The notes under the pieces are model-generated. The model was not told where the DNA came from, did no database searches, and saw only the letters and a list, made by a program, of their open reading frames with translations. A DNA stretch of 64,000 bases from contig CP003316.1 of assembly GCA_000247545.1 (NCBI GenBank), positions 1,521,233-1,585,232 of the forward strand, written 5' to 3'. Position numbers and translations under genes: made by a program. The stretch's first letter is position 1. The number at the start of each line of letters is the position of its first letter. The stretch is from Pyrobaculum oguniense TE7. Its GTDB lineage: Archaea; Thermoproteota; Thermoprotei; Thermoproteales; Thermoproteaceae. Shown piece by piece: positions 32,218 through 48,138 of the stretch.

Positions 32218-32853
32218 TTAAGAATATTTTGAAATTACTTTAATTAATTCACAGAGGCTGTTATATATTTCGGCTATCTTGAAATCATGGCTGGTTCGGC
32301 CGTTAGTTATGCCGACGAACTTTACCCCGGCCGCCGTAGCCGAGGCCTCGTCCCACTCGCTATCCCCTATCATTACAGCATTCCTCGCGTTGATCCCAAG
32401 CCTCCTCAAGGCCACTAGCACGGGGTCGGGAAACGGCTTAGGCCTTATCCCCTCCTCTCTAGCAACCACCGCATCCGCCCTTATGCCAAATTTTTCCAAC
32501 ACGACGGCGGTGGCGCGGGGGCCCAACAACGTGACGATTGCCTTCTTATATCCCTCAGTCGCCCTCAAGAACTCGGCTAAACAAGGCATCGGCGCCGAGC
32601 GGACAGCGCCCTGCACCTCGTAGCGCTCTACCACCTCGTTGGCCATACGCCACGAGGGGGTTCCCGCAAGGGCGACGAGGGCGTCCATCGCCGCCTTCGT
32701 GCATTTGCCCCAGTAGGTTTTAGGCGTCTCGGCGCCTCGGGCAAGGCCCAGTCGTGACAGCTCCGCGTAGGCAGAGCAGTAGTCAACGTAGCTCTCTATA
32801 TCGACCAGGGTCCTGTCTAGGTCGAGCAGAAGCGCCGCCACGCCTACCACCAC
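32218..32853 (-). CDS. HAD-superfamily phosphatase (PGP-like)
   Basis: This 211-residue protein has all HAD motifs: ALLLDLDRTLVD (nucleophile and general acid Asp), IVTLLGP, the KPFPDPVLVAL lysine and VMIGDSEWDEASA. The helical cap lies between motifs I and II, as in phosphoglycolate phosphatases. It overlaps the end of the aldehyde dehydrogenase gene by ten bases, so it belongs to the aromatic operon. It could remove phosphate from an aromatic or other small phosphate. Confidence 0.8.
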   Translation of the reverse strand: MVVGVAALLLDLDRTLVDIESYVDYCSAYAELSRLGLARGAETPKTYWGKCTKAAMDALVALAGTPSWRMANEVVERYEVQGAVRSAPMPCLAEFLRATEGYKKAIVTLLGPRATAVVLEKFGIRADAVVAREEGIRPKPFPDPVLVALRRLGINARNAVMIGDSEWDEASATAAGVKFVGITNGRTSHDFKIAEIYNSLCELIKVISKYS

Positions 32854-34319
32854 CTTTGCATTACCACCTTGCGGTCAGTGAAGAAGTCCACGGCGTCTAC
32901 TTGGGCGTGCAACACGCCGAAGAAGGACTTCTTGCGGCCGCCGAACGGGAAGTGGGGGGTGGGCTGGGCTATGGCCATGTTTATGCCTATGTTGCCGGCG
33001 TTGACGCGCCTGGCGAATTCCCTGGCGTATTTGCCGCTTGATGTGAATATAGATGCGGCGTTGCCGTATTTAGTCGCGTTGGCGAACTGCACGGCCTCTT
33101 CGAAGTTCCTGGCGTATATTATGGGGAGCACGGGGCCGAAGACCTCCTCCTGCGCGATCTCCATGTCCATGTGAACCTCGTCGAGGACCGTGGGCCCCAT
33201 GTAGAAGCCCTCCGGATAAGCCTCCACCCGGTAGCCCCTTCCATCCACCAGTGGCTTCGCGCCCGCCTCCACGGCCCTCGTCACCATCCCCTCCACCCTC
33301 TGCTTGGAGGCCGAGGAAATGAGCGGGCCCATATCTGTATTGGGGTCAAGCTGGTAGCCCACCCTAATCTTCTTGACCCTCTCGACTATGTGTCTCTTGA
33401 ACTTCTCATAGGCCTCGCCCACTAGGATGAGGTTGCCGGGTGCCAGACAACGCTGGCCCGCCATCACGAAGAACCCCGTGGCTATATTCTCCACGGAGTT
33501 GGTCAAGTCGGCGTCTGGCATAACCACCACGGGGTTCTTAGCCCCGGCCCCCACGAGCGCCCTCTTCCCATGGGCGGCGGCCAAGGCGTACACCTTTTCC
33601 CCCACCTTGGTGGACCCCACGAAAGCAACACCTACGACCTCCGGGTGCTTGATCAAGGCCTCAGCCGTCGACCCGTCGCCGTGTATCACGTTGAAAACGC
33701 CCGGCGGGTAGCCCGCCTTCTGGAAGAGCTCGCCGAGAGCCGCCGCGGGTATGGGGTCTTGCTCGCTGGGCTTGAGGACGACTGTGTTGCCTAGAGTGAT
33801 GGCCAAGGGGATGAACCACTGGGGTATCATCACAGGGAAGTTAAACGGCGTAATGATGGCGAAGACGCCCAGCGGCTCCCTCACGGTCTCCATGTCTATT
33901 TCGGGCTCCGTGTTTGCGATATTCATCACCTTCTTCACGTCGGCCAGGAAATGGGGGGACGCGAGAGCCATGTCGATAGCCTCTAGGCCCCTCCTAAGCT
34001 CCCCCACGGCCTCCGCAACGGTCTTGCCCACGTTTTTGGCCACCACCTTGGCCAGCTCCTCCATATTCTGCTCGTACACAATCTTCAGCCTCACCAAGTA
34101 CTGTAGTCTCTCGTAGATGGGGAGCCTCGACCACTTCTCGAACGCCGAGGCGGCGGCCCTCACGGCGGCATCCACCTCCGACGTAGACGCCACCGGCACC
34201 TCCCCAATCCTACTACCGAGGCCGGGGTCGTATGTGGGGAGTCTTTTATCTCCCCCCACCTCGTATCTCCCGTCGATGAACATCGGCACTACGCCGTAAG
34301 AATCCCTCAGACTTATCAT
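32844..34319 (-). CDS. Aldehyde dehydrogenase, methylmalonate-semialdehyde type
   Basis: This 491-residue NAD-dependent enzyme has TPFNFPVMIPQWFIP, the cofactor loop FVGSTKVG, and catalytic Cys in VMAGQRCLAPGN. Instead of the general-base motif of ordinary aldehyde dehydrogenases it has GAGAKNPVVVMPDAD, like the GAKNH region of the CoA-acylating methylmalonate-semialdehyde dehydrogenases. The C terminus (HFPFGGRKKSFFGVLHAQ) also fits that group. It may turn a semialdehyde from ring cleavage into an acyl-CoA. It sits between pps genes and the HAD gene. Confidence 0.85.
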   Translation of the reverse strand: MISLRDSYGVVPMFIDGRYEVGGDKRLPTYDPGLGSRIGEVPVASTSEVDAAVRAAASAFEKWSRLPIYERLQYLVRLKIVYEQNMEELAKVVAKNVGKTVAEAVGELRRGLEAIDMALASPHFLADVKKVMNIANTEPEIDMETVREPLGVFAIITPFNFPVMIPQWFIPLAITLGNTVVLKPSEQDPIPAAALGELFQKAGYPPGVFNVIHGDGSTAEALIKHPEVVGVAFVGSTKVGEKVYALAAAHGKRALVGAGAKNPVVVMPDADLTNSVENIATGFFVMAGQRCLAPGNLILVGEAYEKFKRHIVERVKKIRVGYQLDPNTDMGPLISSASKQRVEGMVTRAVEAGAKPLVDGRGYRVEAYPEGFYMGPTVLDEVHMDMEIAQEEVFGPVLPIIYARNFEEAVQFANATKYGNAASIFTSSGKYAREFARRVNAGNIGINMAIAQPTPHFPFGGRKKSFFGVLHAQVDAVDFFTDRKVVMQRWW

Positions 34320-34359: not shown

Positions 34360-35367
34360 TTATTTACTCTTTATCGACATTAAAGTTCTCACTATATCTT
34401 TAATTATATCTCCCGAGCTCTCCCATTTGTGGACCGCCTTCTTGGACCACACGGTCTCCGGCCTGCTCTGCAGGACGTAGACGTCATCGCCGTAGGCCCA
34501 CTCGACGTCGACGGGATGTCCGTAATATCTCTCAAGCCTCATCACCACGTCGGCTATCCTCAACGCTTGCTCGTCCGTGAGGGAGGGCCTCGAGGTCTCA
34601 TCCGGGGGCAACTCCTCCTCGACCACGGCGCCATCCCTCAGCGCATATTTCTTGGTCTTCTGATCCGAGATAACCCTCTTGATGATCTCGCCCGTGACCT
34701 TGCTCACATAGAATCTGTCGGGCGTCACCTCGCCGGACACCACAGCCTCGCCTAGGCCCCAGCTGGACTCTATAGCGACCACGGACTTATCACCGGTGGT
34801 TGGGTTGAGGGAGAAGGCAACGCCGGCTGACACCGGGTCGATCAGCTTCTGGATCACGACTGCCATGAGCACCTTCGAGGGCGGGATCTTGTTGTCAAGC
34901 TTATATGAAACGGCTCTCTCCACAAAATTACTGGCCCACACCCGTTTTACATACGCCCGCACGTCGCTACCCCTAACGCCGAGGTAGGTGTCGTGGATAC
35001 CCGCGAAGCTGAAATCGGGGGAGTCCTCGTAGGTGGCTGACGATCTGACCGCCAGATAGTCGTCGAGGAACTCCTCCTCCACCCTCCGTAGGTGCTCGTC
35101 CAGCTCAGGCGGTATGTCGCCCGCCAGGATCCTCTCCCTTATCTCCGCAACTATGGAAAACGGGTTCCCCTCACCTCTGTCTAATCTGGCCACGAGCTTG
35201 TCCAGATTATTGTACTCGAGATAAGCTCTGTAAGCCTGTGACGTTACCACATATCCAGGTGGCACTCTGGCGCCTGCCGCGATGAGCTCGCCAAGCGAGG
35301 CGCCCTTGCCTCCCGCCAGAGCCACGTCGGTTCTCCTCAGCTCTGGGATAGGGATTAAGTATTTCAT
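34360..35367 (-). CDS. ppsB: Phenylphosphate synthase ATP-binding subunit (PpsB-like)
   Basis: This 335-residue protein starts at ATG 35367, which overlaps the stop of the PpsA-like gene (ATGA). It matches the N-terminal ATP-grasp domain of PEP synthases: LAGGKGASLGEL, AVRSSATYEDSPDFSFAGIH, VAFSLNPTTGDKSVVAIESS, WGLGEAVVSGEVTPDRF, PVDVEWAYGDDVYVLQSRPE. The size is that of PpsB of Thauera (about 40 kDa), which with PpsA uses ATP to make phenylphosphate, AMP and phosphate from phenol. It lacks the His domain, which is supplied by the upstream gene. PEP synthase is excluded by this split. Confidence 0.82.
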   Translation of the reverse strand: MKYLIPIPELRRTDVALAGGKGASLGELIAAGARVPPGYVVTSQAYRAYLEYNNLDKLVARLDRGEGNPFSIVAEIRERILAGDIPPELDEHLRRVEEEFLDDYLAVRSSATYEDSPDFSFAGIHDTYLGVRGSDVRAYVKRVWASNFVERAVSYKLDNKIPPSKVLMAVVIQKLIDPVSAGVAFSLNPTTGDKSVVAIESSWGLGEAVVSGEVTPDRFYVSKVTGEIIKRVISDQKTKKYALRDGAVVEEELPPDETSRPSLTDEQALRIADVVMRLERYYGHPVDVEWAYGDDVYVLQSRPETVWSKKAVHKWESSGDIIKDIVRTLMSIKSK

Positions 35368-37220
35368 TCTAGGATCTCTACTACGCCCTTGTACCCGTCT
35401 ACCCTTATCCTTTGCCCGTCTTTTATTAGGCGGCTGGCGTTGCCCGTGCCCACCACCGCGGGAACGCCGTATTCCCTGGCCACTATAGCGGCGTGGGCCA
35501 TCAAGCCGCCTATGTCGGAGACAACAGCCTTGACCTTGGCGAATACCGGGCCCCAGGCTGGCGAGGTGTTGGGGCAGACCAGTATATCGCCCTCCTTCAC
35601 TTTGCTCAGCTCCTCCACGCTCCTCACCACCACGGCCTTGCCCTCCACCACGCCTGGCGAGGCCGGGAAGCCCTTGATGATCTTGCCGGCTGCGGCCGCG
35701 GTGCCTAGCCAATCATCGATGCGCTCCCTCGTGACGCCCCATAGCATCACGGTGAAGGGCTCTGTGACCACCTCGGGCGGTCTGCCGCTGGCTGGCGGCG
35801 TGATCGCCTGCTTCAGCTTGGCGAGGATCTCCTTTCTTTTCGCTATCTCCCTAGGCCAGTAGTACTTGCCCACAGTAGGCATCACGACGGCCCAGCTGGC
35901 CACTAGATCCATCAAGGCTTGGTATACCTCCATCCAGTTCATGTAGAAGATGTCGTCCTCCCTTTCCAAGAAGCCGTGCTTCACCAATATCCGCGCCACC
36001 TCCTTGACCTTCTGGTAGAACACCGTATGGCCCCAGTGCTCCACGTAGAAGTTGTGCTCCTCAACATAGGGGAATACGGTGCGAGCGATCTGAAGGTACT
36101 CCCTAAAAGTCTTCCTATCCTCGGGCGGGAGGAGCTCCTCGTACTTCCTCGCTATCTCGTCCCTCTGAGCCCTCAGCCTCTCGGTGGCCGTCTCCAGCGT
36201 TTCGCCGCGCTTGACCTTAACTATGTAGTCCTTGAGGAAGTTGAACGGGACATTTAAGTCGTCGATCCACCTCGGCTCGTGGTGGTAGAAGCCGATGCCC
36301 GTGGTGTAGTAGAACCACGGGTATTTGGCGTTGTTCCACTCCTGGAACCACCTCCTCTCCTTCTCGTTTGAGGAGCGGGAGAGCTCCGCCTCCATCTGCT
36401 CTGCGGATGTGAAGGACAAGATCCTATCAGCAACGCCCAGCTCCACGGCGAGCTTGGCAAGCCTGCGTAGCTCTAGATCGGGCTTGAACAATATTACGTC
36501 GATGCCGGCAACCATCAGCGCAATGTGCTGATCGGGTATGTCGGGAAACTTCTGCTTCATGAACTGGTAAAACAGGAGGTAGGCGGCGTAGCCCAAGTTC
36601 AACATCTCGAAGTGCTTCCACCACAGCCTCTGGTGCAGCATGATGAGCCTCAGCCAGTTCTCCACGAGACTATAGATAGACGGCGAAATACCCTTGTGCT
36701 CGAATACGACGCTCTCGTCCTCTAACTCGGGGAGATCCTTAAACTCGAGGCTCTCCATCTCCTTGACTATGCGCTCTGCCTCCGGCTTCCAGTACTTCTC
36801 ATATATCTCGTTCCAGTTCTGATAGTAGTGGCCCGCCCTCCTCTGGAAGTATTGGAGCCTCTTCTCCACCTCCTTTGGGTCTGTCACTGGCACGAAGGAT
36901 ATGAAGAGCTTCCCGTTCACTATCCTATGGGGTATGCCGTTTGCGGGCGGGACGACGAATATGCGGGAGTTATAAGCGGAGAGTACCACCTCCCAGTGCG
37001 TCGGGTGTATATCGTCAAACGGGTACATGACATCGTAGTGGTGTAACGCGTCGTGGTACCAGAACATGCTCCTCTCCCACTCGATGAGCTCCTTAGGCGC
37101 ATCTTTGCCGAACAGCACAGAGGCGGGCAGTCTATAATACAGATACATCCTCTTGTATGTCTCAACGTCTACGTCCTTAGGCAACTCTATTTCATCTAAA
37201 TAGGGGAATCTTGCCGACAT
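35364..37220 (-). CDS. ppsA: Phenylphosphate synthase His/substrate subunit (PpsA-like)
   Basis: This is a 618-residue protein (about 71 kDa). The N-terminal roughly 500 residues are the substrate-binding region (no ATP-grasp fold). The C-terminal 100 residues are the swivelling phosphohistidine domain: KGFPASPGVVEGKAVVV, NTSPAWGPVFAKVKAVVSDI, GGLMAHAAIVAREYGVPAVV with His at about 576. This equals the domain order and size of PpsA of anaerobic phenol degraders, where the His carries phosphate to the phenol oxygen. Coupled to ppsB by ATGA. A TATA box on this strand at 37241-37250 precedes it. The unusual point is the aerobic context. Confidence 0.82.
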   Translation of the reverse strand: MSARFPYLDEIELPKDVDVETYKRMYLYYRLPASVLFGKDAPKELIEWERSMFWYHDALHHYDVMYPFDDIHPTHWEVVLSAYNSRIFVVPPANGIPHRIVNGKLFISFVPVTDPKEVEKRLQYFQRRAGHYYQNWNEIYEKYWKPEAERIVKEMESLEFKDLPELEDESVVFEHKGISPSIYSLVENWLRLIMLHQRLWWKHFEMLNLGYAAYLLFYQFMKQKFPDIPDQHIALMVAGIDVILFKPDLELRRLAKLAVELGVADRILSFTSAEQMEAELSRSSNEKERRWFQEWNNAKYPWFYYTTGIGFYHHEPRWIDDLNVPFNFLKDYIVKVKRGETLETATERLRAQRDEIARKYEELLPPEDRKTFREYLQIARTVFPYVEEHNFYVEHWGHTVFYQKVKEVARILVKHGFLEREDDIFYMNWMEVYQALMDLVASWAVVMPTVGKYYWPREIAKRKEILAKLKQAITPPASGRPPEVVTEPFTVMLWGVTRERIDDWLGTAAAAGKIIKGFPASPGVVEGKAVVVRSVEELSKVKEGDILVCPNTSPAWGPVFAKVKAVVSDIGGLMAHAAIVAREYGVPAVVGTGNASRLIKDGQRIRVDGYKGVVEILE

Positions 37221-37250: not shown

Positions 37251-37389
37251 ATTTCCAAAAATTCTTACAAGTGATTATCTAAATATTTATGATTTTGTAA
37301 ATTTAAATTTATTTGTGGCAAATTAAAAACCCTAGGCGAGAAATAAAATTCCCAAAAAGAATATCTTGACGCAAACCCAAGCACGTTCC

Positions 37390-38166
37390 ATGAACAAGGT
37401 CGTCACATATTTTCTGGACGTGCAAGGCACGTTGGTGCGCCGGGATCCAGCCACCTTAAAGAGCAGACTTATTGGAGGGAGAGAAGCCTTGAGAAGAATC
37501 AGGGAAGTCGGCAAGAGGGTTTTTATCTTATCTAACGCCCCGCGACTCACGGAAGAGGTGCACAAAGACCTCGCCTCCGTAGGCCTTGATATAAGCCTAG
37601 AAGAGGTAATCACTTCTGCGCAAGTGACTGGGGAGTACGTCTTGAGAAAGTTCGGCCCGAGCAAGCTCTACGTGATCGGGTCGGACAGCTTCAAGGCAGA
37701 GCTGGCTAAATATGGCCACGAAGCAGTTGACGACGGGGCAGACGTCGTGGTGGTGGGGATCGACCGGCAGCTCACCTTCGAAAAGCTTAATAAGGCCTTC
37801 AACATGCTCCTCTCCGGCGCCAAGCTGGTGGCGGCGGGGATGTCTAGATTCATACCTGAGGAAAAGCCTACCATTTCCATCGGCCCCATAGCCATGGCCC
37901 TCTACTACGCCTCCGGGGTGCGGCCTATCAACACGGGGAAGCCCTCCCGCATAATGTATACATACGCCTTGATTAAGGCTAGGAGCTATCCCGAGGAGTC
38001 GGCTGTAGTAAGCGATGACTTGGAGGACCTAGTTATGGCTAAGCGGATGGGCATGTATACCGTCCTGGTCCTCACGGGTACCACCAAAAAGGAGGACCTA
38101 GAAAGAAGGGGCTTCAAGCCTGATCTGGTGTTGGAGAACGTAGATGAGTTAGCCAAATATATATGA
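37390..38166 (+). CDS. NagD-like HAD protein 1, altered motif I
   Basis: This protein of about 258 residues starts MNKVVTYFLDVQGTLVRRDP. It has HAD motifs I (FLDVQGTL), II (FILSNAPRL), III (TGKPSRIMYTYAL) and IV (VVSDDLEDLVMAKRMG), with a C2-type cap as in NagD/4-nitrophenylphosphatase relatives. The second Asp of motif I, the usual general acid, is Gln (DVQ). It is coupled (ATGA) to a paralogue and divergent from ppsAB. Family enzymes cleave aryl phosphates; in anaerobic phenol pathways a HAD protein is a subunit of phenylphosphate carboxylase. The start follows the better N terminus; TTG 37366 is an alternative. Confidence 0.75.
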   Translation: MNKVVTYFLDVQGTLVRRDPATLKSRLIGGREALRRIREVGKRVFILSNAPRLTEEVHKDLASVGLDISLEEVITSAQVTGEYVLRKFGPSKLYVIGSDSFKAELAKYGHEAVDDGADVVVVGIDRQLTFEKLNKAFNMLLSGAKLVAAGMSRFIPEEKPTISIGPIAMALYYASGVRPINTGKPSRIMYTYALIKARSYPEESAVVSDDLEDLVMAKRMGMYTVLVLTGTTKKEDLERRGFKPDLVLENVDELAKYI

Positions 38167-38981
38167 TAAGGCTGTTTGCCTTTGACGTCCACGGGGTTTT
38201 CATCACCAGAATACTCGACGACCCAGAGATTCTCGGCGGGCAGAAGCTGGTGGACGAGCTGAAGAGGCGCGGCTACAATGTTGCTGTTATAGCCAGCGGC
38301 TCCAACTGGAGCACTAAGGAGTACGCAGCGCGGCTGAGAAGCCTCGGCTTTAACTTCGACGACGACGAGGTGTGGCCCGCCAGCAGGGTGGCGGCCCTAC
38401 ACCTCTCGCGGCTATTCGGCAAGGCGAGGTGTCTAGTTCTAGGCGAGCCAGGCCTTGTCGATGAACTCACTGGATGGGGACACGAGGTCGTCGACGACTG
38501 GAGAATCGCCGAGGCCGTTGTGGTCGGGCTTGACAGACAGCTCACTTACAAAAAGCTCACCGACGCCATAAGGGCGGTGCATAGGGGGGCCTACTTCCTC
38601 GCAGTTAACAAGGTGAGGTGGTACTATATGCCGGGCGAGGGGCCGATCGCCTCGCCGGGCGCCATCGTCGCGGCTATCGAGTACCAGACGAGGAGGGAGG
38701 CCGTGGTGGTAGGCAAGCCCAGCGTGGTGCACTACTATACTGTGCTCTCCCACTTTGGGATCAAGCCTGAGGAGGCCGTGATGGTAGGCGACGATGTAGA
38801 GGCAGATCTCATACCCGCCAAGACGGTGGGGATGAAGACAGTGCTTGTGTCTTCGGTGGATAGAACCGATAAGCAAGAGGCGCCGCCCAAGGCAGTGGAC
38901 ATAGCCATTAGCCACGTGGATGAGCTACTTAAATACGTAGACAATGGTCAATTATATATTATGTCAGAAAAAGTTAAATAA
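38163..38981 (+). CDS. NagD-like HAD protein 2, altered motif I
   Basis: This 272-residue paralogue of the preceding gene has motif I FAFDVHGVF, with His replacing the general-acid Asp, II VIASGSNWS, III VVGKPSVVHYYTV and IV MVGDDVEADLIPAKTVG. Shared segments such as VVGLDRQLTYKKL against VVGIDRQLTFEKL show a tandem duplication. The two may form one heterodimer. Loss of the general acid suggests slow turnover, binding only, or a changed reaction on a phosphorylated aromatic. A short extra tail (NGQLYIMSEKVK) extends past the common end. Confidence 0.75.
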   Translation: MIRLFAFDVHGVFITRILDDPEILGGQKLVDELKRRGYNVAVIASGSNWSTKEYAARLRSLGFNFDDDEVWPASRVAALHLSRLFGKARCLVLGEPGLVDELTGWGHEVVDDWRIAEAVVVGLDRQLTYKKLTDAIRAVHRGAYFLAVNKVRWYYMPGEGPIASPGAIVAAIEYQTRREAVVVGKPSVVHYYTVLSHFGIKPEEAVMVGDDVEADLIPAKTVGMKTVLVSSVDRTDKQEAPPKAVDIAISHVDELLKYVDNGQLYIMSEKVK

Positions 38982-39000
38982 TTCCAAATATTTACATATA

Positions 39001-39990
39001 ATGTCCCGCGGTCGCTATCTCCGGCGAATTCAAAAAATTAAAACCGGTAGCTTCATGGTCAGTCTCCCCATGGACTGGGTTAAGCGGAATAACCTCTCAT
39101 CCCAATCACCTGTCTTCGTGATAGAGGATCCCAACAACAACGTAGTGGTGCGCATTCCCACTTCAAAATGCCTCGTGGAGGTGAACGTGAGCCAGCTGAG
39201 TATAAGCGTTTTAGAGGACGTCTTAAAGATTCTGTATATGCAAGGGCTATCAAAGATTATTCTAAAGTCCGAGACCGGGTTCTCAGAAGAGGTAGTTAGG
39301 TTGGTTAGATCTCTGAGGCAAGATCTCATAGGCTACGAGGTTGAGGATATAGGCTTTAAGCAGATTATAATCGAAGTGAAGGACTCCATCGAGTATGTAG
39401 ATAGCGAGACGTTTATGCGTTATTTTAAGAAGTCGTTGAGATACTTAAAATCGGCTCTAGCATCTCTGCCTTCTCACGTCCAGTCGTACAACGCGAAGAA
39501 TGTAAAGGAGGTGTTGCTGGAGGCCAAGAGGACATACCGCTACCTTGCCCGCCTGCTAGCTTTGGCGCTAAAAGAGCCGGAAAGAAATGGCCTCCCCGCA
39601 TCGCTACATGTAGTATATATAGAGAATATAACGAGACTTAGGGAAATTGCATACTACATATACAGGATGGTGGATTTCGTAGAGAGCTTGACGCCGAAGG
39701 ACGTAGAGCTTCTCAAGCCTATGATATCGGTAGTTAGTAGGGCTATAGACCTGCTAGAAAATGGCCTCGATATAGATGCGTTAGCGTCTCTAAGGGAGGA
39801 GGTCAATTCCTCAGAGGAGGCGTTAATCGCGCAAACGCACAACCCGAAGCTAATCCACTCCGCCTTTGCCCTACGTCGTATTATGCACAACCTTCTCAGA
39901 ATAGTAGAGAATTTCTACGCCGTGGCAAAAGTGCAAGACGTCAAGTGCGTGGCGGAGGAGCTGGAAAAAACAGTGGAGTTTAGTGGCTAG
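39001..39990 (+). CDS. AbrB-like/PhoU-like regulator
   Basis: This 329-residue protein starts MSRGRYLRRIQKIKTGSFMV. Residues 10-50 (SLPMDWVKRNNLSSQSPVFV, then VVVRIP) resemble the swapped-hairpin AbrB/SpoVT DNA-binding domain. Residues from about 150 are helical with repeated Glu/Asp/Arg-rich segments, as in PhoU-type archaeal regulators. These are linked to phosphate uptake or signalling. It lies directly after the HAD pair and could regulate the island or phosphate use. It ends convergently with the LigA-like gene, overlapping by four bases. Confidence 0.65.
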   Translation: MSRGRYLRRIQKIKTGSFMVSLPMDWVKRNNLSSQSPVFVIEDPNNNVVVRIPTSKCLVEVNVSQLSISVLEDVLKILYMQGLSKIILKSETGFSEEVVRLVRSLRQDLIGYEVEDIGFKQIIIEVKDSIEYVDSETFMRYFKKSLRYLKSALASLPSHVQSYNAKNVKEVLLEAKRTYRYLARLLALALKEPERNGLPASLHVVYIENITRLREIAYYIYRMVDFVESLTPKDVELLKPMISVVSRAIDLLENGLDIDALASLREEVNSSEEALIAQTHNPKLIHSAFALRRIMHNLLRIVENFYAVAKVQDVKCVAEELEKTVEFSG

Positions 39991-40262
39991 AAGCTGGGGT
40001 CATTTATTCTCTTCACGTACTCGTCTCTTTTTATCCCAAGAACATGGGCGAGGTGGTAGAGCAGAAGTTGGTGCACACCCATCTTGTATAATGTATACAA
40101 GCGTCCCTCCTTTAGGAGGGGCCAAAAACGCTTGTCAATGCCGTATTCGGCCATTACGGCATCCGGCTCTTTTTTAAACCGCTCCCTTATCTCGGGCCTT
40201 AGGTGGAAATCCCTCAGCAACCGCTCGATTTTAAAGATCTCGTTTCTGCTTACGGTCTCCAT
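39987..40262 (-). CDS. LigA-like small subunit of extradiol dioxygenase
   Basis: This 91-residue helical protein has DFHLRPEIRERFKKEPDAVM, then AEYGIDKRFWPLLKEGRL and MGVHQLLLYHLAHVLG. It matches the alpha (LigA) subunit of protocatechuate 4,5-dioxygenase-type enzymes, which covers the active site of the LigB subunit. It overlaps the LigB-like gene by 13 bases. Confidence 0.8.
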   Translation of the reverse strand: METVSRNEIFKIERLLRDFHLRPEIRERFKKEPDAVMAEYGIDKRFWPLLKEGRLYTLYKMGVHQLLLYHLAHVLGIKRDEYVKRINDPSF

Positions 40263-41080
40263 ACCGCCCAGGCGCTGCCTATGTTGTAGCCCGGCACGTA
40301 GTCCACCACCTCCGCGGGCTTTCCCCTCATGACGCCCCAGACCACCACCCAGTTTAGAATTTCGTAAGAGCCTCCACCTGTGGCGAAAACCTCGTCCGGC
40401 GTCAGAGCCAGCGCTGACCTCACATCGCCGCTTGCCAGATATGAGAGGAACCTCTTGTCAAATTCCTCGTCAACATAGCCCCATCTCGGCCCTCCCGGGT
40501 CGTGGGAAAGCCCCCCAGTAGCCAGAACAGCTACTCTTAATTGCTCGGGATAGCTCTCCAGCGCCTCCCTCATGGCCAAGCCCAGCTGGTATCCCCTAGC
40601 CAGAGACGGGACGGGCTTAACAAAGGCGTTGGTCAAGACCGGGACAACCGGGTATTTAATAACGCCGCGTTCCCTATCGCCGGCGAGGAAGTGGAGCGGA
40701 TTCATAGTGGCGTGGTCGAGGAGCGGGTTGCTGGAAAAAGCCACGTCGAATCCCTTGTCCACCAAGCTCTTCAAGAGGTACTCAGCCAGCCTCCTGTGTA
40801 TCCTCACCTTGTATTTAGGTATTCTGAGCCATTCATAGTCCGGAGGCCCCTCATACTCGTCGGCGACTACTATGAGGAACTGGGGAATTATCTCGAACAT
40901 GTAGGTAACGTGGTCGTTGGCGACGGTGACTATCACGTCTGGCTTCGTCTCCTCTAACACCCCCCGTAGCTTTTCGTAATTCGAGTACACCCTGGCCCTC
41001 TTCTCTGGCGGCTCCTCCTCAGCTCTTGCAGTAATTCCAGGAGCGTGGGTCGCTGCAAGACCTAAAACCATCCTCGCCAT
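40250..41080 (-). CDS. LigB-like class III extradiol ring-cleavage dioxygenase
   Basis: This 276-residue protein of the LigB family has GLAATHAPGI near the N terminus (iron-ligand His), DVIVTVANDHVTYMFE (second His), VLATGGLSHDPGG, and TGGGSYEILNWVVVWGVM near the end. Such enzymes use Fe(II) and O2 to open catechol-type rings next to the hydroxyls, and need O2. With the LigA-like gene downstream it forms a two-subunit dioxygenase. This is the strongest single sign that the island breaks down aromatic rings aerobically. Confidence 0.85.
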   Translation of the reverse strand: MARMVLGLAATHAPGITARAEEEPPEKRARVYSNYEKLRGVLEETKPDVIVTVANDHVTYMFEIIPQFLIVVADEYEGPPDYEWLRIPKYKVRIHRRLAEYLLKSLVDKGFDVAFSSNPLLDHATMNPLHFLAGDRERGVIKYPVVPVLTNAFVKPVPSLARGYQLGLAMREALESYPEQLRVAVLATGGLSHDPGGPRWGYVDEEFDKRFLSYLASGDVRSALALTPDEVFATGGGSYEILNWVVVWGVMRGKPAEVVDYVPGYNIGSAWAVWRP

Positions 41081-41161: not shown

Positions 41162-41797
41162 CTAACATCGCGGCACCACTGCCCTCTCCAATAGTATCGG
41201 AATTATCTGAAGGGCGTCTCCCACTACGCCGAGGTCGGCCACTTTGAATATGTCCGCATGTCTATTTACATTAACCGCCACGATATAGCGCGCGTTTCTA
41301 ATGCCCACCAAGTGGTTTATGTGGCCTGAAACGCCGAAAGCTATATAAAGCTTCGGCGCGATGGCCCTGCCAGATACGCCGACTTGCACCTTATAGGGTA
41401 ACCACCCCGCGAGCACCACATTGCGGGTAGCGGCGACGGCGGCGCCGAGCTTTTTAGCAAGCGCGATGGCCAACTCTACGTTTTCTCTGCGCTTTAGCCC
41501 CCTCTCCACGCCAATCACCACTTCGGCCCCCTCAAGATCGGGGTGGCCTATATCAACTGGGCGTCTGGCCAAGATAGAGATCCGTCCGCCAGCGTGCATC
41601 ACGACCCGCGTCACCTCGCCCCTGCGGCCAGGGTTGGGGACGAGAGGCTTGAACATGCCGGGTCTCGCCGTGGCCATCTGTGGCTTTGTCTTCGTTGTTA
41701 TAAGCGAGACCACGTTGCCGCCGAAGGCCGGCTTATGCATAACAAGCTTGCCTTCTTTTACATCAAAATTCATACAGTCGGCGGTAAGCCCTATCAC
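41162..41797 (-). pseudogene. etfA: 3' fragment of electron-transfer flavoprotein alpha gene
   Basis: The 211 codons match only the C-terminal FAD domain of EtfA: IGLTADCMNF, ERGLKRRENVELAIALAKKL, GAAVAATRNVVLAGWLPYKV, QVGVSGRAIAPKLYIAFGVS, GHINHLVGIRNARYIVAVN, FKVADLGVVGD. The N-terminal domain of about 110 residues that contacts the beta subunit is missing, and no etfB gene is near. Upstream in this frame the sequence turns at once into the other fragment (41763-42185). It is best read as a deletion remnant; expression of a lone FAD domain is possible. Confidence 0.7.
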
Positions 41798-42185
41798 TGG
41801 CCAAGTTCCTCCACTCGCCGGCCTTCCCGAATTTGGCCATGCGGGCCTCTCCCGGGACGGCCTTGTATTCAGGTATGGGTTTTGCCGTTATGTGGATGCA
41901 GAACGCGCCTCCGTGGTAGGCGGGATCTAGTTTTCTGTCCAGTTCGGCCCTCAGCGCTGCATCGCGCACGGCGAATTGATCCATTTGCCGCTGGTTAGTC
42001 ACATACTCCCTATGGGTGACCTTATAGGAGGTGTCGTATTGCTCAGCCCAGACGTCTATGGGCAGATAGGGCAAACTGTGCATATCTACGGGAAATAGCT
42101 CCTTCTCTCTGACGTATTTCGGCGTCAACTCAAGCCTGTTTGCTGGGTCGTAGTACTCGTCTCTCGTAGGAAGTCTTGGCTCCAT
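41763..42185 (-). pseudogene. 5' fragment of toluene-monooxygenase-type hydroxylase alpha gene
   Basis: The first about 125 residues follow the N terminus of TmoA-type di-iron hydroxylase alpha subunits: TPKYVREKELFPVDM, YDTSYKVTHREYVTNQRQMD, PEYKAVPGEARMAKFGKAGE, RNLAS. Glu of PEYKAV corresponds to the first iron ligand. The gene ends where the DExRH helix should follow, so five of six ligands and about 370 residues are missing. After RNLAS the frame runs out within a few codons and overlaps the etfA fragment out of frame. It cannot be an active oxygenase. Confidence 0.7.
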
Positions 42186-42336
42186 TTTTGTTGTTTGCAC
42201 GACCACAATTTTTGTAATTTTTTCAGAAATATTTCTCAATATTTATTATAGAAAAATTTAAAATATATCAAAATAAGAAGACATAAAATGTACTTCTAGG
42301 GAAAATTTTTTGAGAGAAGGAAATAAAATTCAAACG

Positions 42337-42642
42337 CTAAATCTCCACGTATACGGCCCCGTCCTTTATCACCGCCTCATACGTCCTTATGTAGTACTTA
42401 TATCCTTTCAATTCCCCCTCGCCTGTTTCTAGGTTGTAGACAGTGCCGTGGCCCTTGCACGTCAAATGCCCGTCCCTGTACGTGCCGAGGCTGAGCAACC
42501 ATCTACCGTGGGGGCATATGCCGTCGGCCACGTAGATCTTATCTCCGTCTTTAACCACCAAGAGCGCCTTCGTGCCTACCGCGACGGGCACCGGCGCCTT
42601 CTCCGGCAACTTAGCCACCTCGATGACCTTTACCATTACCAT
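42337..42642 (-). CDS. Rieske-type [2Fe-2S] ferredoxin
   Basis: This 101-residue protein starts MVMVKVIEVAKLPEKAPVPV. Cluster ligands are in DGICPHGRWLL (Cys-x-His) and LTCKGHGTVYNLETGEGE (Cys-x2-His). It is the soluble oxygenase-ferredoxin type. The start overlaps the helical-Rieske fusion gene by seven bases, so both are made together. It probably transfers electrons to that protein or to the di-iron proteins. Confidence 0.88.
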   Translation of the reverse strand: MVMVKVIEVAKLPEKAPVPVAVGTKALLVVKDGDKIYVADGICPHGRWLLSLGTYRDGHLTCKGHGTVYNLETGEGELKGYKYYIRTYEAVIKDGAVYVEI

Positions 42643-43607
42643 GGCACCCTCACGTAGATTACTCCATCGGCGATCTTTACTTGGTACCTCGGGAGGGTTC
42701 TCGCCTCGCCGTGGTTGGGGTGTAGTATAACCCTGCCGCTCCTGGCGTCGAAGGTGGCGTGATGGGCGAGGCAGGTGAGCTGCTTGCCCATTAGGTAGCC
42801 GTAGTGGAGCGGGTCCCGCTCGTGGGTGCACCAGTTCTCAAACGCCGCGACGACGCCGTCGACGTATGTCAGCAAGACCTCCCTCCAGAGGCCCACGACG
42901 GCCATCTTCTTGCCCACGCGCTGTAGCTCATCTACTGTGGCGACCCTCTCCCATTGGGTGTCTGGTAGCTGCGGACCCCCATCATCTACAACCTCGGGGG
43001 GTTGGAAGAAGTCGAAGTAGATTGGCGTGATGGCGTTAAACAGCTCTAGGTCGACCCCCTCTCTGTCCGGCTTGTTAACGCCAACGGCCTGTAGGGCGTC
43101 GTCTATGACCTTTATCTCGTCCTCTTCCCTCATGTATGCCAGATAGGCCAGCTGGGCTACGTGTCGGTTGTTAGCGTTGTAGGCAGCCGCCCTATATCCC
43201 GTGTGGGTGAACTTCACGGCGATCCTTGCCGCCATGAGGCCCCTCTTGATATCCTTCTTCGCCACGCCTACGACGTAGTCCATCAGCTCCTTGATCTTGG
43301 GAGGTATCCGCAGCCCGTTGAGGCCCAGCGCTCTAGATGCCACGAACCACCTCCTATACACGCTGCTCTCGTGCCAGTCCACGATCCAGCCCATCTTGTG
43401 GTATATATCGGGCTCCGCCATGAGCTCCGGCCTCTCTACGGCGGCCCTCACTAGTTGTATTGTAAACAGCTCTTCCAGCAACTTCTGTTGCACGAACCTC
43501 CTGTAACCGTAGAGACCGGGATCGCGCCTAAACCACTCCACCCAGCTTTCGTGAAGTGTAAATTCGAACTCGTCTATCTTATCCCTAGTTGCGATTGGTG
43601 TTTGCAT
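42636..43607 (-). CDS. Helical domain fused to a Rieske domain
   Basis: This is a 323-residue protein. Residues 1 to about 205 are mostly helical with conserved-looking segments (KMGWIVDWHESSVYRRWFVA, HTGYRAAAYNANNRHVAQLA, YMREEDEIKVIDDAL) that I cannot assign; no ExxH di-iron motif is seen. Residues 225-323 are a Rieske domain with Cys260/His262 (NWCTHERDP) and Cys279/His282 (LTCLAHHATFD). A fusion of this type would deliver electrons within one chain. It may be a reductase or coupling component for the di-iron oxygenases. Operon with the Rieske ferredoxin downstream. Confidence 0.7.
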   Translation of the reverse strand: MQTPIATRDKIDEFEFTLHESWVEWFRRDPGLYGYRRFVQQKLLEELFTIQLVRAAVERPELMAEPDIYHKMGWIVDWHESSVYRRWFVASRALGLNGLRIPPKIKELMDYVVGVAKKDIKRGLMAARIAVKFTHTGYRAAAYNANNRHVAQLAYLAYMREEDEIKVIDDALQAVGVNKPDREGVDLELFNAITPIYFDFFQPPEVVDDGGPQLPDTQWERVATVDELQRVGKKMAVVGLWREVLLTYVDGVVAAFENWCTHERDPLHYGYLMGKQLTCLAHHATFDARSGRVILHPNHGEARTLPRYQVKIADGVIYVRVPW

Positions 43608-43629: not shown

Positions 43630-44157
43630 TTAATAGTTATCAAAATCTATTTTATTTAATTTTGCGCAATATAAGGCGAGAGCCGCCGTGGCTCTCAGAT
43701 CCTCTATCTCCATCTTATGGGCTTTTTCGCACGCCTCTGACAGAGGGATTTTGACCACTTCGATCACCTCATATGGCTCCGGGGAGATCCTACCTGGAAT
43801 CGTGTCGCGCGCGAGAAATATATGTGCCACCTCTGTGCTGTATCCGGGGCTCACGATGCCCTTAAATAGAAGCTCTAATGAAGTCGGCTTGAAACCCGTC
43901 TCCTCCTCCAGCTCCCTCGCGGCGGCATCCTCAGGCGTCTCGCCGTCTGCCACCACGCCGGACGGGAGCTCAAGGGTGTAGCGGCCTAGAGCAGGGCGGT
44001 ACTGCCTCACGAAGAGCACATCCCCGTCGTGAAGTGCCAGCACCGTCACCACAGGCGGGAAGACCACCCTCTCAGCGGTGGTTTCTAGGCCGTTAGGAAG
44101 GCGCACCGGCCCTCCCTCCACCGTAATCCTCTTCCCCCTGTACTTGACCTCCATCAT
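43630..44157 (-). CDS. Nudix hydrolase, ADP-ribose pyrophosphatase-like
   Basis: This 175-residue protein has the Nudix box GETPEDAAARELEEETGF in SGVVADGETPEDA..., preceded by FVRQYRPALGRYTLELPSG, typical for ADP-ribose or nucleotide-sugar pyrophosphatases. ATG 44157 overlaps the stop of the upstream Rieske gene by four bases (ATGATGG). A direct role in aromatic metabolism is not obvious; it may clean up a nucleotide by-product. Confidence 0.85.
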   Translation of the reverse strand: MMEVKYRGKRITVEGGPVRLPNGLETTAERVVFPPVVTVLALHDGDVLFVRQYRPALGRYTLELPSGVVADGETPEDAAARELEEETGFKPTSLELLFKGIVSPGYSTEVAHIFLARDTIPGRISPEPYEVIEVVKIPLSEACEKAHKMEIEDLRATAALALYCAKLNKIDFDNY

Positions 44158-44507
44158 AGAACAGTGGGGGACGCCACCACTGGGAGATCTACATATATGT
44201 ACCCGTCTACCTCAACAGCAGCGTAAACCCTAAGCTTATTGCTAGGCTTTCCCTGTACTGCGCCCTCGCCTGTAGACAGCGACCAGAGGCCGCCGTGTCC
44301 TTTGCATAATACTTTCACATCGCCGTCAGCTCCCACAAAGCACATGCCAGAGGCGCCTAGATTCCACTTGCTGTGTGGGCAAAAGGCTTCAAAGACAACT
44401 ACTCTCCCGTTAACCCTCGCGAGGGCTACCGGCGTGATGCCGACTATCTTAACAACAGGCTTGCCGCCCTCGGGCACCTCCGCGGATCTGGCGACTTTTA
44501 CAAACAC
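44154..44507 (-). CDS. Rieske-type [2Fe-2S] ferredoxin
   Basis: This 117-residue protein has cluster halves FEAFCPHSKWNLG and VLCKGHGGLWSLSTGEGAVQ, very like the Rieske at 31079-31393. It has no membrane segment. It lies just downstream of two di-iron proteins in the same orientation and is their likely electron donor, mirroring the pairing at 31.1-32.2 kb. Confidence 0.88.
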   Translation of the reverse strand: MFVKVARSAEVPEGGKPVVKIVGITPVALARVNGRVVVFEAFCPHSKWNLGASGMCFVGADGDVKVLCKGHGGLWSLSTGEGAVQGKPSNKLRVYAAVEVDGYIYVDLPVVASPTVL

Positions 44508-44555: not shown

Positions 44556-45338
44556 TTATATTGCCCTCTTCTCGGAAAGCTCTACCCTTCTCACCCTAGC
44601 CTCGGTGGAGACTCTAAGCGCCTCTGCGGCGCATTCCAGGATGTTCCGAATAGCCTCAGGCGATCTGGCATACTTCTCCCACATCCTCTCCGCGATGGAC
44701 CAGTGGAAGAGCTCATCGTCCTCTATCTCGCGGAAAGACTCTCTCAACATCTCGGCGGCCTTTGCGTAGGGCCCGGAGTACAGTTGCCTATTCCTCTCCA
44801 AGTTGTCGTGCACCCCTCTGTGGTGGTACACGCTGGTGAGCTCCACGACTTGGAGGGTAGAGGTGAGCCTCACCTGGAGGTACTTCGGGTTCTTCGGCGC
44901 GCAGACGAAGGGGAGCTCAAACAACTCCACCCACTCCTTTATCGGCTTAAATCCCTCCATGGAGCCGCCGAAGGCCTTCAGTATTCTGCTTCTGAGGTAT
45001 AGGTGGCGCCCCTCGTCCGCGATCTGCTGGGCAAACATGGTCATGAACTCCGTATCTATGTAATCTCTATATTCATTGATAGATCTTGCCACGTCTGATG
45101 CGGCTGCCCACTCGTTCCACACGCCTTGCCTCAGCCACGCGATCACGCCGGGGACGTCGGTTGTGGTCGCCCAGGCTGAGCCTATTTCGTAGTGGAATTG
45201 TAGCACGGGATCGGCGGCCGCCTTGAACCAATCCACGAACTCCACGGGGGATTTAAACGCCGTGGCGTCTACCTCCTTTATCTTAGCCCACACATCCTTG
45301 ACTTGTTCTACTTTTTCCCAAAGTTTTTCGTAGACCAT
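44556..45338 (-). CDS. Di-iron oxygenase-like protein B
   Basis: This 260-residue paralogue of the proteins at 31390 and 45394 has the ligand set intact: Glu76 (WNEWAA), Glu109/His112 (ADEGRHLY), Glu166 (QVVELTSVYHHRGVHDN), Glu209/His212 (EDDELFHW). It ends RVELSEKRAI, nearly the same as paralogue C, so B and C are recent relatives. It begins about 55 bp after paralogue C. Prediction: O2-activating catalytic subunit. The paralogues may form a mixed complex as in other multi-subunit di-iron enzymes. Confidence 0.75.
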   Translation of the reverse strand: MVYEKLWEKVEQVKDVWAKIKEVDATAFKSPVEFVDWFKAAADPVLQFHYEIGSAWATTTDVPGVIAWLRQGVWNEWAAASDVARSINEYRDYIDTEFMTMFAQQIADEGRHLYLRSRILKAFGGSMEGFKPIKEWVELFELPFVCAPKNPKYLQVRLTSTLQVVELTSVYHHRGVHDNLERNRQLYSGPYAKAAEMLRESFREIEDDELFHWSIAERMWEKYARSPEAIRNILECAAEALRVSTEARVRRVELSEKRAI

Positions 45339-45393: not shown

Positions 45394-46197
45394 CTAAATG
45401 GCCTTCTTCTCGGATAGCTCCACGCGCCTGATCCTAGCCTCCATCGCGGCCCGCAACGCGCCTCCTGCGCAGTCCAGTATCTCCGCCCTCGCCTCGGGCG
45501 TGTTGGCGTACTTCATCCACACCCTTTCGGCAATGGACCAGTGGAAGAGCTCGTCGTCCTCTATCTCCCTGAAGGTCTCCATGAACAACTGGGACGCCTC
45601 CCTATACGGCTGAACCCACAGCCTCGGGTTGTTGGGGAAGTTGTCATGCACCCCTCTGTGGTGGTACACGCTGGTGAGCTCCACGACTTGTAGCGTCGAG
45701 GTCAGCTTGACTTGGAAGTACGGCCACTCTAGCCTCTTGGAGGCGCATCTCAGCGGGAAGTCGAACAGCTCAACCCACTCCTTTATGGGCTGGAAGCCCT
45801 CCATAGAGCCCCCGTACATCTTCAACACCTTGGACCTTATGTAGTAGTGTCTGCACTCGTCGGAGATCTGTTGCGCCAACACGTTCATGAACTCGGTGTC
45901 TATCAAGTCGCGGTATTCGGTAATGGATCTGGTGATCACCGTGTTCGCGGCCCACTCGTTCCACACGCCTTGCCTCAGCCACGCGACCACGCCGGGGACA
46001 TCGGCGTTGAGGATCCACTGGGCCCCTATCTGGTACTGGACGTTGAGTAGCGGATCCACAAAGGCCTTGAACCAATCTATGAACTCAACTGGCGTTTTGA
46101 ACTGGGCTAGGAACTGCCTATCGTTTTTCAGCTTCTCCATTTCGTCCAGGATATACCTCCGCTCTTGATACATCTGCTTTAATTTTTCAGCAGACAT
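45394..46197 (-). CDS. Di-iron oxygenase-like protein C
   Basis: A 267-residue protein with di-iron ligands Glu81 (WNEWAAN), Glu114/His117 (SDECRHYY), Glu173 (VVELTSVYHHRGVHDN) and Glu216/His219 (EDDELFHW). It shares most of its length with paralogues A and B. The first-shell ExxH motif has Cys beside the Glu (DECRH). It is the first gene of the unit C-B-Rieske-Nudix. The sequence upstream (46198-46251) is AT-rich and holds its promoter. Confidence 0.75.
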   Translation of the reverse strand: MSAEKLKQMYQERRYILDEMEKLKNDRQFLAQFKTPVEFIDWFKAFVDPLLNVQYQIGAQWILNADVPGVVAWLRQGVWNEWAANTVITRSITEYRDLIDTEFMNVLAQQISDECRHYYIRSKVLKMYGGSMEGFQPIKEWVELFDFPLRCASKRLEWPYFQVKLTSTLQVVELTSVYHHRGVHDNFPNNPRLWVQPYREASQLFMETFREIEDDELFHWSIAERVWMKYANTPEARAEILDCAGGALRAAMEARIRRVELSEKKAI

Positions 46198-46251: not shown

Positions 46252-47233
46252 TTAATGTATTTGTATAATTACCTTGCCGAGCCTCTCGGGGCTGTCAAGC
46301 GCCTTAAGGGCCTCGCCGGCTTGATCCAGCCTATACCTCTGCGATATCGGCGTCTTGATCCTGCCTCTCTCGGCGAGCTCCACGAGAACGGCGAGATCCC
46401 CCCTCCTCCCCCCCGGTGCTCCCCAACACCGACAGCTGTGCGCCGTAGAGCCTCCTGAGGTCGAGCCTCACCTCGCCCCCCGTGAGGGCGCCCGCCGTTA
46501 CGTACCTCCCGCCCCTGGCCAGCATGGAGAAGCTCAGCTCCCAAGTCCCGGCGCCGAGCGGGTCCACCACGACGTCGAAGCCGCCCGCCCTAGACGCCTC
46601 CTGAGGGGTCAGCACCTCGTCGGCGCCCAGCCTCTTGAGCTCTGTCGCGAACTTATCGGCCCTCCTGGTCACCGCCACGACGTAGGCCCCCATCAGCTTA
46701 GCCAGCTGGACGGCGAACACGCCGACGTTCCCCGTGGCCCCCACCACGGCCACTCTCTCGCCCGGCGACACCCCGGCCCTCCTCAGCATGTTATAGGCAG
46801 TGAGGCCGCCCACCGGCAGGCCCACCACGTCCTCGAAGGGGGCTGAGGTCCTCACCAAGTTCCTCGCTGGGACGGAGGCGAGCTCTGCCCAGCCGCCGTG
46901 TGTGGCGACGCCAATTATCCCCCCGGTCTCGCACAGCTGCGTCTCGCCCTTCAAGCAGTGCCGACAGACGCCGCAGAACAGCCTATTGTACACAACAACG
47001 CGGTCCCCCCTCTTGAAATCGCTGGCGCCGGGGTCGAGGACCTCCCCCACGAACTCGGCCCCGGGGACGTGCGGGATGGGCCTCGCCTGCACAGATCCAG
47101 TCACTGTGAATCTGTCTATGGGGTTTACGACGGCCAGCGTAACCCTTAGGAGAACCTCGCCGTGTTTATGCTCGGGGTTTGGGAAATCGCCTACTATAAG
47201 CTCGCCCGGCTTTTCAAAAAAGGCCGCCTTCAT
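46252..47233 (-). pseudogene. Zinc-type alcohol dehydrogenase/quinone-reductase family gene with poly-G frameshift
   Basis: The open part (47233 to about 46415) is a medium-chain dehydrogenase: GAEFVGEVLDPGASDFKRGD, CGVCRHCLKGETQLC (structural-zinc lobe), VVGATGNVGVFAVQLAKLMG (NAD(P) loop). The last 55 codons (LAVLVELAERGRIKTPIS, ending GKVIIQIH at TAA 46252) are in another frame. The switch lies at seven C on the + strand (46408-46414), where six would keep the frame. It is one extra base: a mutation, slippage site or sequencing error. FAH gene upstream overlaps by ATGA. Confidence 0.75.
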
Positions 47234-48138
47234 TCCTCCACCACGTAGTTCCTCAGCCTCCCCACCGACTCGACCTCAGCCTCCACCATGTCACCGCCTT
47301 TTAGGAACTTGCCCTTGGGGAAGCCCACGCCCGGCGGAGTGCCGGTGAATATCATGTCGCCGGGCTTGAGGGTTATGCCCTGGGACGCCCAGTGTATCAA
47401 CTGCTGGACGCTGAAGATTAGGTCTGAGGTGTTGCCCTCTTGCTCCAGCTGGCCGTTTACCCACAGCCTAAGCCCCAGCTTGTTCGGATCGGGGACCTCG
47501 TCCTTAGTAACAATCCAAGGCCCCACCGGCGCGGCTGTGTCCATGGACTTGCCCCATATCCAGTTTTGCCCGTATGGATTGAGTTGTTGCGGCCATCCCG
47601 GCGGGAACTGCCAATCCCTTATCGACACATCGTTGCCTACTGTATAGCCAAAGACGTAGTCAAGCGCCCTCTCGGGGTCGATGTACTTGCCAGCTCTCCC
47701 AATGACAACCACAAGCTCCACTTCCCAGTCTACCTTCTGCGCCACTTTGTGCTTTATTATGCGGCCCTCGTGGCCGACCAGCGCGTTGGGGAACTTGGGG
47801 AAGAGGTAGGGCCTTTCAGGCGGCCTAACCCCGGCTTCTTGGCCGTGAGCCCTGTAGTTAACCGCCACGGCGAATATCTTCTCCGGATCGGGGACCGGCG
47901 GCTCCCAAACAAACTCGCCGGGGGCGTAAAAGGGCCCCTTAGCCCTGGCCTCCAACTTTTTAACTACTTCAAGGGCAGGCTCACCCACGGCGATTAGTTT
48001 TTTCATGCTGTAGAGAAAATCCGGCGCCTCGTATGTGCCAAACACTTGCTTATACGCCTCGGGGAGATCTAGAACTCTCCCCTCTTTCCAAAGCCCTACT
48101 TTTGTCACTTCCCCTTTTCTAAACGTAACTAACTTCAT
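47230..48138 (-). CDS. Fumarylacetoacetate-hydrolase-family enzyme
   Basis: This 302-residue protein has the FAH fold: KIFAVAVNYRAHGQEAGVRP, metal-binding VDWEVELVVVIGRAGKYI, VGNDVSIRDWQ, WGKSMDTAAPVGPWIVTKDE, and DMIFTGTPPGVGFPKGKFLK. Members hydrolyse, isomerise or decarboxylate 2-oxo-dienoic acids made in meta ring cleavage. With the LigAB-type dioxygenase it would form the lower pathway. It overlaps the dehydrogenase gene by four bases. Confidence 0.87.
   Translation of the reverse strand: MKLVTFRKGEVTKVGLWKEGRVLDLPEAYKQVFGTYEAPDFLYSMKKLIAVGEPALEVVKKLEARAKGPFYAPGEFVWEPPVPDPEKIFAVAVNYRAHGQEAGVRPPERPYLFPKFPNALVGHEGRIIKHKVAQKVDWEVELVVVIGRAGKYIDPERALDYVFGYTVGNDVSIRDWQFPPGWPQQLNPYGQNWIWGKSMDTAAPVGPWIVTKDEVPDPNKLGLRLWVNGQLEQEGNTSDLIFSVQQLIHWASQGITLKPGDMIFTGTPPGVGFPKGKFLKGGDMVEAEVESVGRLRNYVVEE

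Follow-up and report, generated by a model that had tools for sequence, protein, structure and literature searches.

A Rieske domain fused to a helical domain in Pyrobaculum oguniense TE7: a candidate accessory subunit of a di-iron oxygenase encoded among aromatic-pathway genes

The fusion gene and its product

The DNA analysed for the current report is a window of 64,000 nucleotides (C1:1521233-1585232) from Pyrobaculum oguniense TE7, whose genome of 2,452,920 bases has been described as a chromosome of 2,436,033 bp and an element of 16,887 bp (PMC3558965). All positions given below are counted within this window. Its central feature is a gene for a protein of two unlike halves, the 3' end of which is overlapped by the gene for a separate Rieske ferredoxin:

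42636-43607, minus strand: helical domain fused to a C-terminal Rieske domain, 323 aa (ORF, Pfam, alignment)
42990-43607, minus strand: residues 1-206 of the fusion, helical domain outside any known family, probably a non-catalytic partner domain (zero Pfam, NCBIfam or PDB sequence matches; candidate acidic and His residues lost in the remote orthologue L024)
42648-42956, minus strand: Rieske domain of the fusion, from residue 218 or so to about 320, with the ligands C260, H262, C279 and H282 (Pfam PF00355, E=1.5e-11; motif)
42337-42642, minus strand: stand-alone Rieske ferredoxin (R2) overlapping the 3' end of the fusion gene (Pfam PF00355, E=2.3e-13; overlap)

The ORF of the fusion begins with ATG and contains zero internal stops; an error of frame or strand was considered and rejected. 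The single Pfam family detected in its product is Rieske (PF00355), which covers residues 218-305 of 323 with 44.5 bits against a cut-off of 20.3, and the motif C-x-H-x16-C-x2-H runs from residue 260 to residue 282, so that the four ligands named in a preliminary description of this DNA are complete and lie exactly where they had been placed. The ligand set and the above-cut-off profile together identify the fusion as a Rieske [2Fe-2S] protein, whose best relatives among PDB sequences, for the Rieske part, are the ferredoxins of dioxygenases. The overlap with R2 had also been described correctly; the R2 gene has two candidate ATG codons, from which it would span either 42337-42642 or 42337-42636.

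Orthologues and conservation of the fusion

Fused orthologues with 73-74% identity over the full length were found in one other Pyrobaculum genome (G029, locus L008) and in two metagenome-assembled genomes of the Thermoproteaceae (loci L006 and L007). A profile of the helical domain matched only these genomes and the source, four in all, among 398 genomes of the phylum, and a fifth genome (G206), which belongs to a different class, was reached through a search of the same 398-genome sample with the di-iron protein family described below. The remote orthologue in G206 (L024, 5992-6948) is 318 aa long, with a C-terminal Rieske domain (E=5e-13) and an N-terminal domain of equal length, and is 27% identical to the P. 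oguniense protein overall and 22% identical over the N-terminal domain. The Rieske motif is intact in all five of the fusion orthologues. G206 has a single di-iron gene and a single fusion gene, the start codon of the latter overlapping the stop codon of the former (ATGA), and the fusion gene is not directly followed by one for a Rieske ferredoxin. Since this layout is shared with a member of another class, the architecture of the fusion appears to be old and maintained. Searches beyond the phylum covered plasmid records, in which zero relatives of the helical domain were found, and one scan of genome contigs with six short exact peptide patterns.

For the pair L006 and L007, dN/dS is 0.08 over the N-terminal domain and 0.05 over the linker plus Rieske domain, values which indicate that both halves of the gene are under purifying selection. 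This selection, together with the recurrence of the fusion in four other genomes, means that the joining of the two domains is neither a product of chance nor one of assembly. An assembly artefact, which the preliminary description had named as a way in which its reading might fail, is thereby rejected, and its suggestion that the same fusion be sought in other archaea has been answered by those four genomes.

The neighbouring di-iron proteins

Three genes for mutually related di-iron proteins and two further genes for Rieske ferredoxins lie in the same window:

44556-45338, minus strand: di-iron ferritin-like protein 1 (di1), probable oxygenase subunit (E76, E109xxH112, E166 and E209xxH212 invariant in 11 sequences; AF2 model with pLDDT 93.6)
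45394-46197, minus strand: di-iron ferritin-like protein 2 (di2; 67% identity to di1 over 235 aa; alignment)
31390-32193, minus strand: third di-iron paralogue (di3; homology search, alignment)
44154-44507, minus strand: second stand-alone Rieske ferredoxin, adjoining di1 (Pfam PF00355, E=1.4e-9)
31079-31393, minus strand: third stand-alone Rieske ferredoxin, with an ATGA overlap with di3 (motif; overlap)

The ligand pattern E, ExxH, E, ExxH is unchanged in all 11 di-iron sequences, and di1, di2 (its tandem paralogue) and di3 all show this pattern on what is taken to be a helical bundle, the bundle being that of the all-helical di1 model and the ligands being read from sequence. Against Pfam the di-iron proteins gave no family above cut-off; the G206 member matches Rubrerythrin (PF02915) below its cut-off, at E=0.0015, and is 30% identical to an annotated ferritin-like protein. 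When the di1 model was compared with known structures in the PDB, heme-oxygenase-like proteins came first (HrmI and TenA, with Z scores up to 18.7), followed by the ferritin-like MiaE; the alignment with HrmI has a Z score of 18.7 over 225 residues at an rmsd of 3.4, and that with MiaE a Z score of 16.2 over 192 residues at an rmsd of 3.0. The absence of a family from these lists was not taken as evidence. The ligand pattern and the weak sequence matches favour a ferritin-like reading of these proteins. The pairing of di3 with a Rieske gene, which recurs as an adjacent pair in G029, supports the view that Rieske proteins might serve as electron donors of these di-iron proteins. Plasmid records gave a single relative of the G206 di-iron protein, a ferritin-like protein of Priestia megaterium (L049, 5869-6510) whose gene lies in a plasmid-borne ketosynthase/methyltransferase cluster.

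The fusion and the di-iron genes occur in an identical set of five genomes among the 398 of the phylum. Four of the five belong to one family, so this co-occurrence should not be counted as five independent events. The fusion and di2 are divergently transcribed in L006, L007 and L008, and close co-transcription of the fusion with a di-iron gene is therefore not universal.

Nature of the helical domain

The preliminary description had called the first 205 or so residues helical. This stands as a prediction, in that the AF2 model of the fusion is helical there, yet the model, which was built on four sequences with the L024 orthologue left out, has a mean pLDDT of 51.6 and is too poor to place the fold of the domain. 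Beyond its Rieske part, a fold search with it gave a chain resembling aldehyde-deformylating oxygenase at a Z score of 6.4, and fold matches of this kind were set aside because of the low pLDDT. Residues 1-206, whether used as a single sequence or as a five-member alignment, gave matches at chance level only against Pfam, NCBIfam and PDB sequences, and the possibility raised earlier that residues 1-210 would turn out to belong to a known, unrelated family found no support in these three collections. Comparisons by hhalign (with shallow profiles) to the neighbouring di-iron protein, to E. coli PaaC and to the beta subunit of toluene monooxygenase gave probabilities of 0.1-0.3% and indicated no homology.

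The helical domain might itself be a catalytic metal domain served by its own Rieske domain, a "Rieske-rythrin" in which Rieske would take the place of the rubredoxin of a rubrerythrin-like protein; the layout of rubrerythrin is comparable. Candidate ligands for such a center would be D77/H79/E80 and E161/E162/E164, which do not vary among the four sequences from the Thermoproteaceae. Against this, E45, D67, H70, D77, H79, E80, H135, H149, E161, E162 and E164 are all lost in L024, in an N-domain alignment which at 22% identity may be locally wrong; there is no ExxH pair, nor any ExxH common to all orthologues, and the sole [D/E]xxH of the domain (DIYH) is gone in L024. A canonical di-iron protein is, moreover, encoded next door. 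We regard a catalytic role for the helical domain as unlikely. The loss of the candidate metal residues from the remote orthologue leads us to read the domain as a non-catalytic partner subunit, in the way that PaaC is to PaaA, and, with the canonical di-iron protein as its neighbor, the simplest reading is that it presents the Rieske domain to the di-iron subunit.

Aromatic-pathway genes around the fusion

The genes on both sides of the fusion and di-iron genes suggest a setting in the breakdown of aromatic compounds:

35364-37220, minus strand: phenylphosphate-synthase-like kinase subunit with the swivel motif SDIGGLMAH (NF006153, 972 bits; 44% identity to a PpsA homologue beside ppcABCD in Azoarcus; motif)
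34360-35247, minus strand: ATP-grasp (PPDK_N) partner subunit of the kinase (Pfam PF01326, E=2.4e-80)
37366-38166, plus strand: HAD-IIA phosphatase a (TIGR01460, 110.6 bits, above cut-off)
38163-38981, plus strand: HAD-IIA phosphatase b (TIGR01460, 104.3 bits, above cut-off)
32218-32853, minus strand: HAD phosphatase c (TIGR01549, 34.3 bits, above cut-off)
40250-41080, minus strand: class III extradiol dioxygenase of the LigB type (Pfam PF02900, E=3.2e-44)
39987-40262, minus strand: LigA subunit (Pfam PF07746, E=3e-7)
32844-34319, minus strand: aldehyde dehydrogenase of the semialdehyde type (TIGR01722, 479.6 bits, above cut-off)
47230-48138, minus strand: fumarylacetoacetate-hydrolase-like protein, resembling the isomerase/decarboxylase HpaG (TIGR02303, E=7.5e-63, below its cut-off)

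SDIGGLMAH, at residue 568 of the kinase, agrees with the motif T/S-x-x-G-G-x-x-x-H, and with this swivel motif and a separate ATP-grasp partner the products of 35364-37220 and 34360-35247 have the features of a two-component phenolic kinase of the PpsAB/HpeHI/CreHI kind. The motif is known from HpeH, CreH and PpsA, and the CreHI kinase initiates aerobic catabolism of 4-methylphenol (PMC12167813); HpeHI phosphorylates phenolic ketones, and the enzyme that follows it acts on the phosphorylated form only (PMC9618137). Beside the best plasmid homologue of the P. oguniense kinase among the matches listed (44%) lie phenylphosphate carboxylase genes, and a homologue on a Rhodococcus plasmid adjoins a cytochrome P450. 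According to Du et al. in 2016, cresyl phosphate is reportedly oxidised by CreJEF and its phosphate taken off by CreD. No dedicated reductase gene was recognised within the P. oguniense cluster.

The genomes that bear the fusion have in common, with synteny kept, the PpsA-like swivel kinase and its PPDK_N partner, HAD phosphatases, LigAB and an FAH-family protein, although the assembly of G044 is fragmented and some pathway genes lie on other contigs; in G206 the kinase is split over two contig ends, its N-terminal part sharing a contig with the di-iron gene and the fusion. A full-length PpsA-like kinase (62-100% identity) and LigB were found, among 26 genomes tested, only in the five with the fusion. 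This company bears on the idea that the di-iron proteins might be protective enzymes of the rubrerythrin type, reducing peroxide or O2 with the fusion as their donor, and that the aromatic genes might be unrelated to them in function. The weak Rubrerythrin match of the G206 protein would fit such a role, and donors of the Rieske type would be plausible in it, but the match lies under its cut-off, a rubredoxin domain is absent, LigB and the PpsA-like kinase accompany the di-iron and fusion genes in five of five genomes, and those tested relatives that lack one of these genes also lack the others. We therefore consider protective enzymes an improbable reading.

The co-occurrence with LigB can also be turned to another use, in that the fusion might serve a different partner in the cluster, for example by restoring the iron in the active site of the LigB extradiol dioxygenase to its reduced state, and stand outside any hydroxylase. 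Ferredoxins such as XylT do reactivate extradiol dioxygenases. In G206, however, the gene that the fusion overlaps is the di-iron gene and not LigAB, and in L006, L007, L008 and L071 its nearest neighbour is likewise a di-iron gene rather than LigB, which makes service to LigB quite improbable.

Several other features of these genomes may be recorded here. Two PpsA-like swivel kinase subunits that are 45% identical (29350-31098 and 35364-37220, both minus strand) lie near one PPDK_N partner (34360-35247), and possibly represent two phenolic kinases that share a single ATP-grasp subunit; the PpsA2 homologue of G029 (L070, 1864-3466) occupies two overlapping frames, which suggests a frameshift. 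A zinc/quinone-type dehydrogenase (46331-47233, minus strand) aligns with its relatives over about residues 1-275 of 300 only, its C-terminus being apparently out of frame relative to the 333-aa version in L006, and a frameshift is suggested here also. On a haloarchaeal plasmid (Natrinema, L077), PpsA/PPDK_N-like kinase genes lie near genes for an SRPBCC-family/dioxygenase beta subunit and an aldehyde dehydrogenase, a possible further phosphate-primed aromatic pathway in archaea. Finally, 41162-42239 (minus strand) encodes a fragment of the alpha subunit of a bacterial multicomponent monooxygenase (Phenol_Hydrox profile positions 2-106 of 230; about 42% identity to plasmid homologues), which stops near 41798, where a gene for an electron-transfer-flavoprotein alpha subunit that lacks its N-terminus starts. 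The ORF seems to join two genes across a deletion, and no other PF02332 matches were found in the P. oguniense genome or in 20 relatives.

A proposed role for the fusion protein

The fusion gene keeps company with a di-iron enzyme gene and genes for phenol phosphorylation and ring opening, and its product is therefore probably the built-in electron feeder of an aromatic-ring hydroxylase not previously described. More specifically, we favour a di-iron oxygenase of two components in which the fusion is the second, accessory subunit and brings the electron donor with it, and assign this reading a probability of about 0.6. The preliminary description had proposed an oxygenase coupling component; the strict company of the fusion with a di-iron protein, the ATGA overlap in G206 and the Rieske genes beside other di-iron genes all agree with the proposal, in which the function itself is deduced.

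The fusion and its conservation are observed, as are its complete set of Rieske ligands, the ligands of the di-iron proteins and the company of genes; from these we infer a complex, an electron flow, a substrate and an order of steps as follows. The N-terminal helical domain would dock on the catalytic subunit, either or both of di1 and di2, in the manner of PaaC on PaaA. The C-terminal Rieske domain, joined to it by a linker, would supply electrons to the di-iron center for the activation of O2, a task that falls to T4moC in toluene 4-monooxygenase; R2, the ferredoxin of the overlapping gene, is probably an electron relay to the fusion or serves the paralogue. The PpsA/PpsB-like kinase would turn a phenolic substrate into an aryl phosphate, the di-iron/Rieske oxygenase would hydroxylate the aryl phosphate, and a HAD phosphatase would remove the phosphate to leave a catechol-type product (a diol), which LigAB would open by meta-cleavage, with steps of the ALDH and FAH/HpaG-like kinds after ring opening. 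That the substrate of the oxygenase is primed with phosphate is a tentative suggestion drawn by analogy, to which we give somewhat less than even odds. The same caution applies to the whole scheme of an aerobic pathway in hyperthermophilic archaea in which phenols might be phosphorylated before their hydroxylation by di-iron oxygenases of a new family, with the Rieske donor held covalently in an otherwise unclassified helical partner subunit.

No description of such a system was found in the open-access literature that was searched. If the proposal is true, it adds a design for electron transfer in which the accessory subunit of a di-iron oxygenase carries a tethered Rieske domain, a family of oxygenases that has no above-cut-off match in the copy of Pfam used, and, for hyperthermophilic archaea, an aerobic pathway for aromatics that is primed by phosphate.

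Comparison with known systems

The fusion shares with the Rieske non-heme iron ring-hydroxylating oxygenases a Rieske domain joined to another domain and a setting of aromatic degradation, but the order of the domains is reversed, as the preliminary description had rightly observed. The fusion was rejected as an alpha subunit of this class, since its Rieske domain is C-terminal and Rieske is the only kind of family that it matches; nor is it a Rieske oxygenase in its own right, as the Rieske domain is followed by no mononuclear-iron domain.

With the CreHI/CreJEF/CreD pathway for 4-cresol and with PpsAB, the proposed pathway would have in common a two-component phenol kinase, after which come another conversion and a phosphatase. 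It would differ in its oxygenase, which here would be of the di-iron/Rieske type whereas Cre uses a P450 and Ppc a carboxylase, and in the opening of the ring by LigAB, the archaeal pathway itself being deduced from its genes.

With PaaA/PaaC of the phenylacetyl-CoA epoxidase, where PaaC is a structural subunit alongside the catalytic PaaA (PMC9493321), the likeness lies in the proposed pairing of a catalytic di-iron subunit with an inert helical structural subunit and in an activated aromatic substrate; here the electrons would come from the fused Rieske domain and not from the reductase PaaE, and activation is proposed to be by phosphate and not by CoA. Neither the fusion nor the di-iron proteins match PF05138 (PaaA_PaaC), which E. 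coli PaaA and PaaC match at 5e-95 and 2e-96. Nor do the di1-type proteins match PF02332, the alpha subunit of bacterial multicomponent monooxygenases, the only match in the window being the fragment at 41763-42239. As judged by profile, the system is thus a member of neither PaaA/PaaC nor the multicomponent monooxygenases.

T4moC/T4moH of toluene 4-monooxygenase offers the parallel of a Rieske protein presumed to pass electrons to a carboxylate-bridged di-iron hydroxylase, except that T4moC is a separate ferredoxin whereas the Rieske domain here sits C-terminally on a helical domain of 206 residues. Most likely, the fusion system is a variant of the Rieske-coupled di-iron oxygenases in which the donor is part of the accessory subunit.
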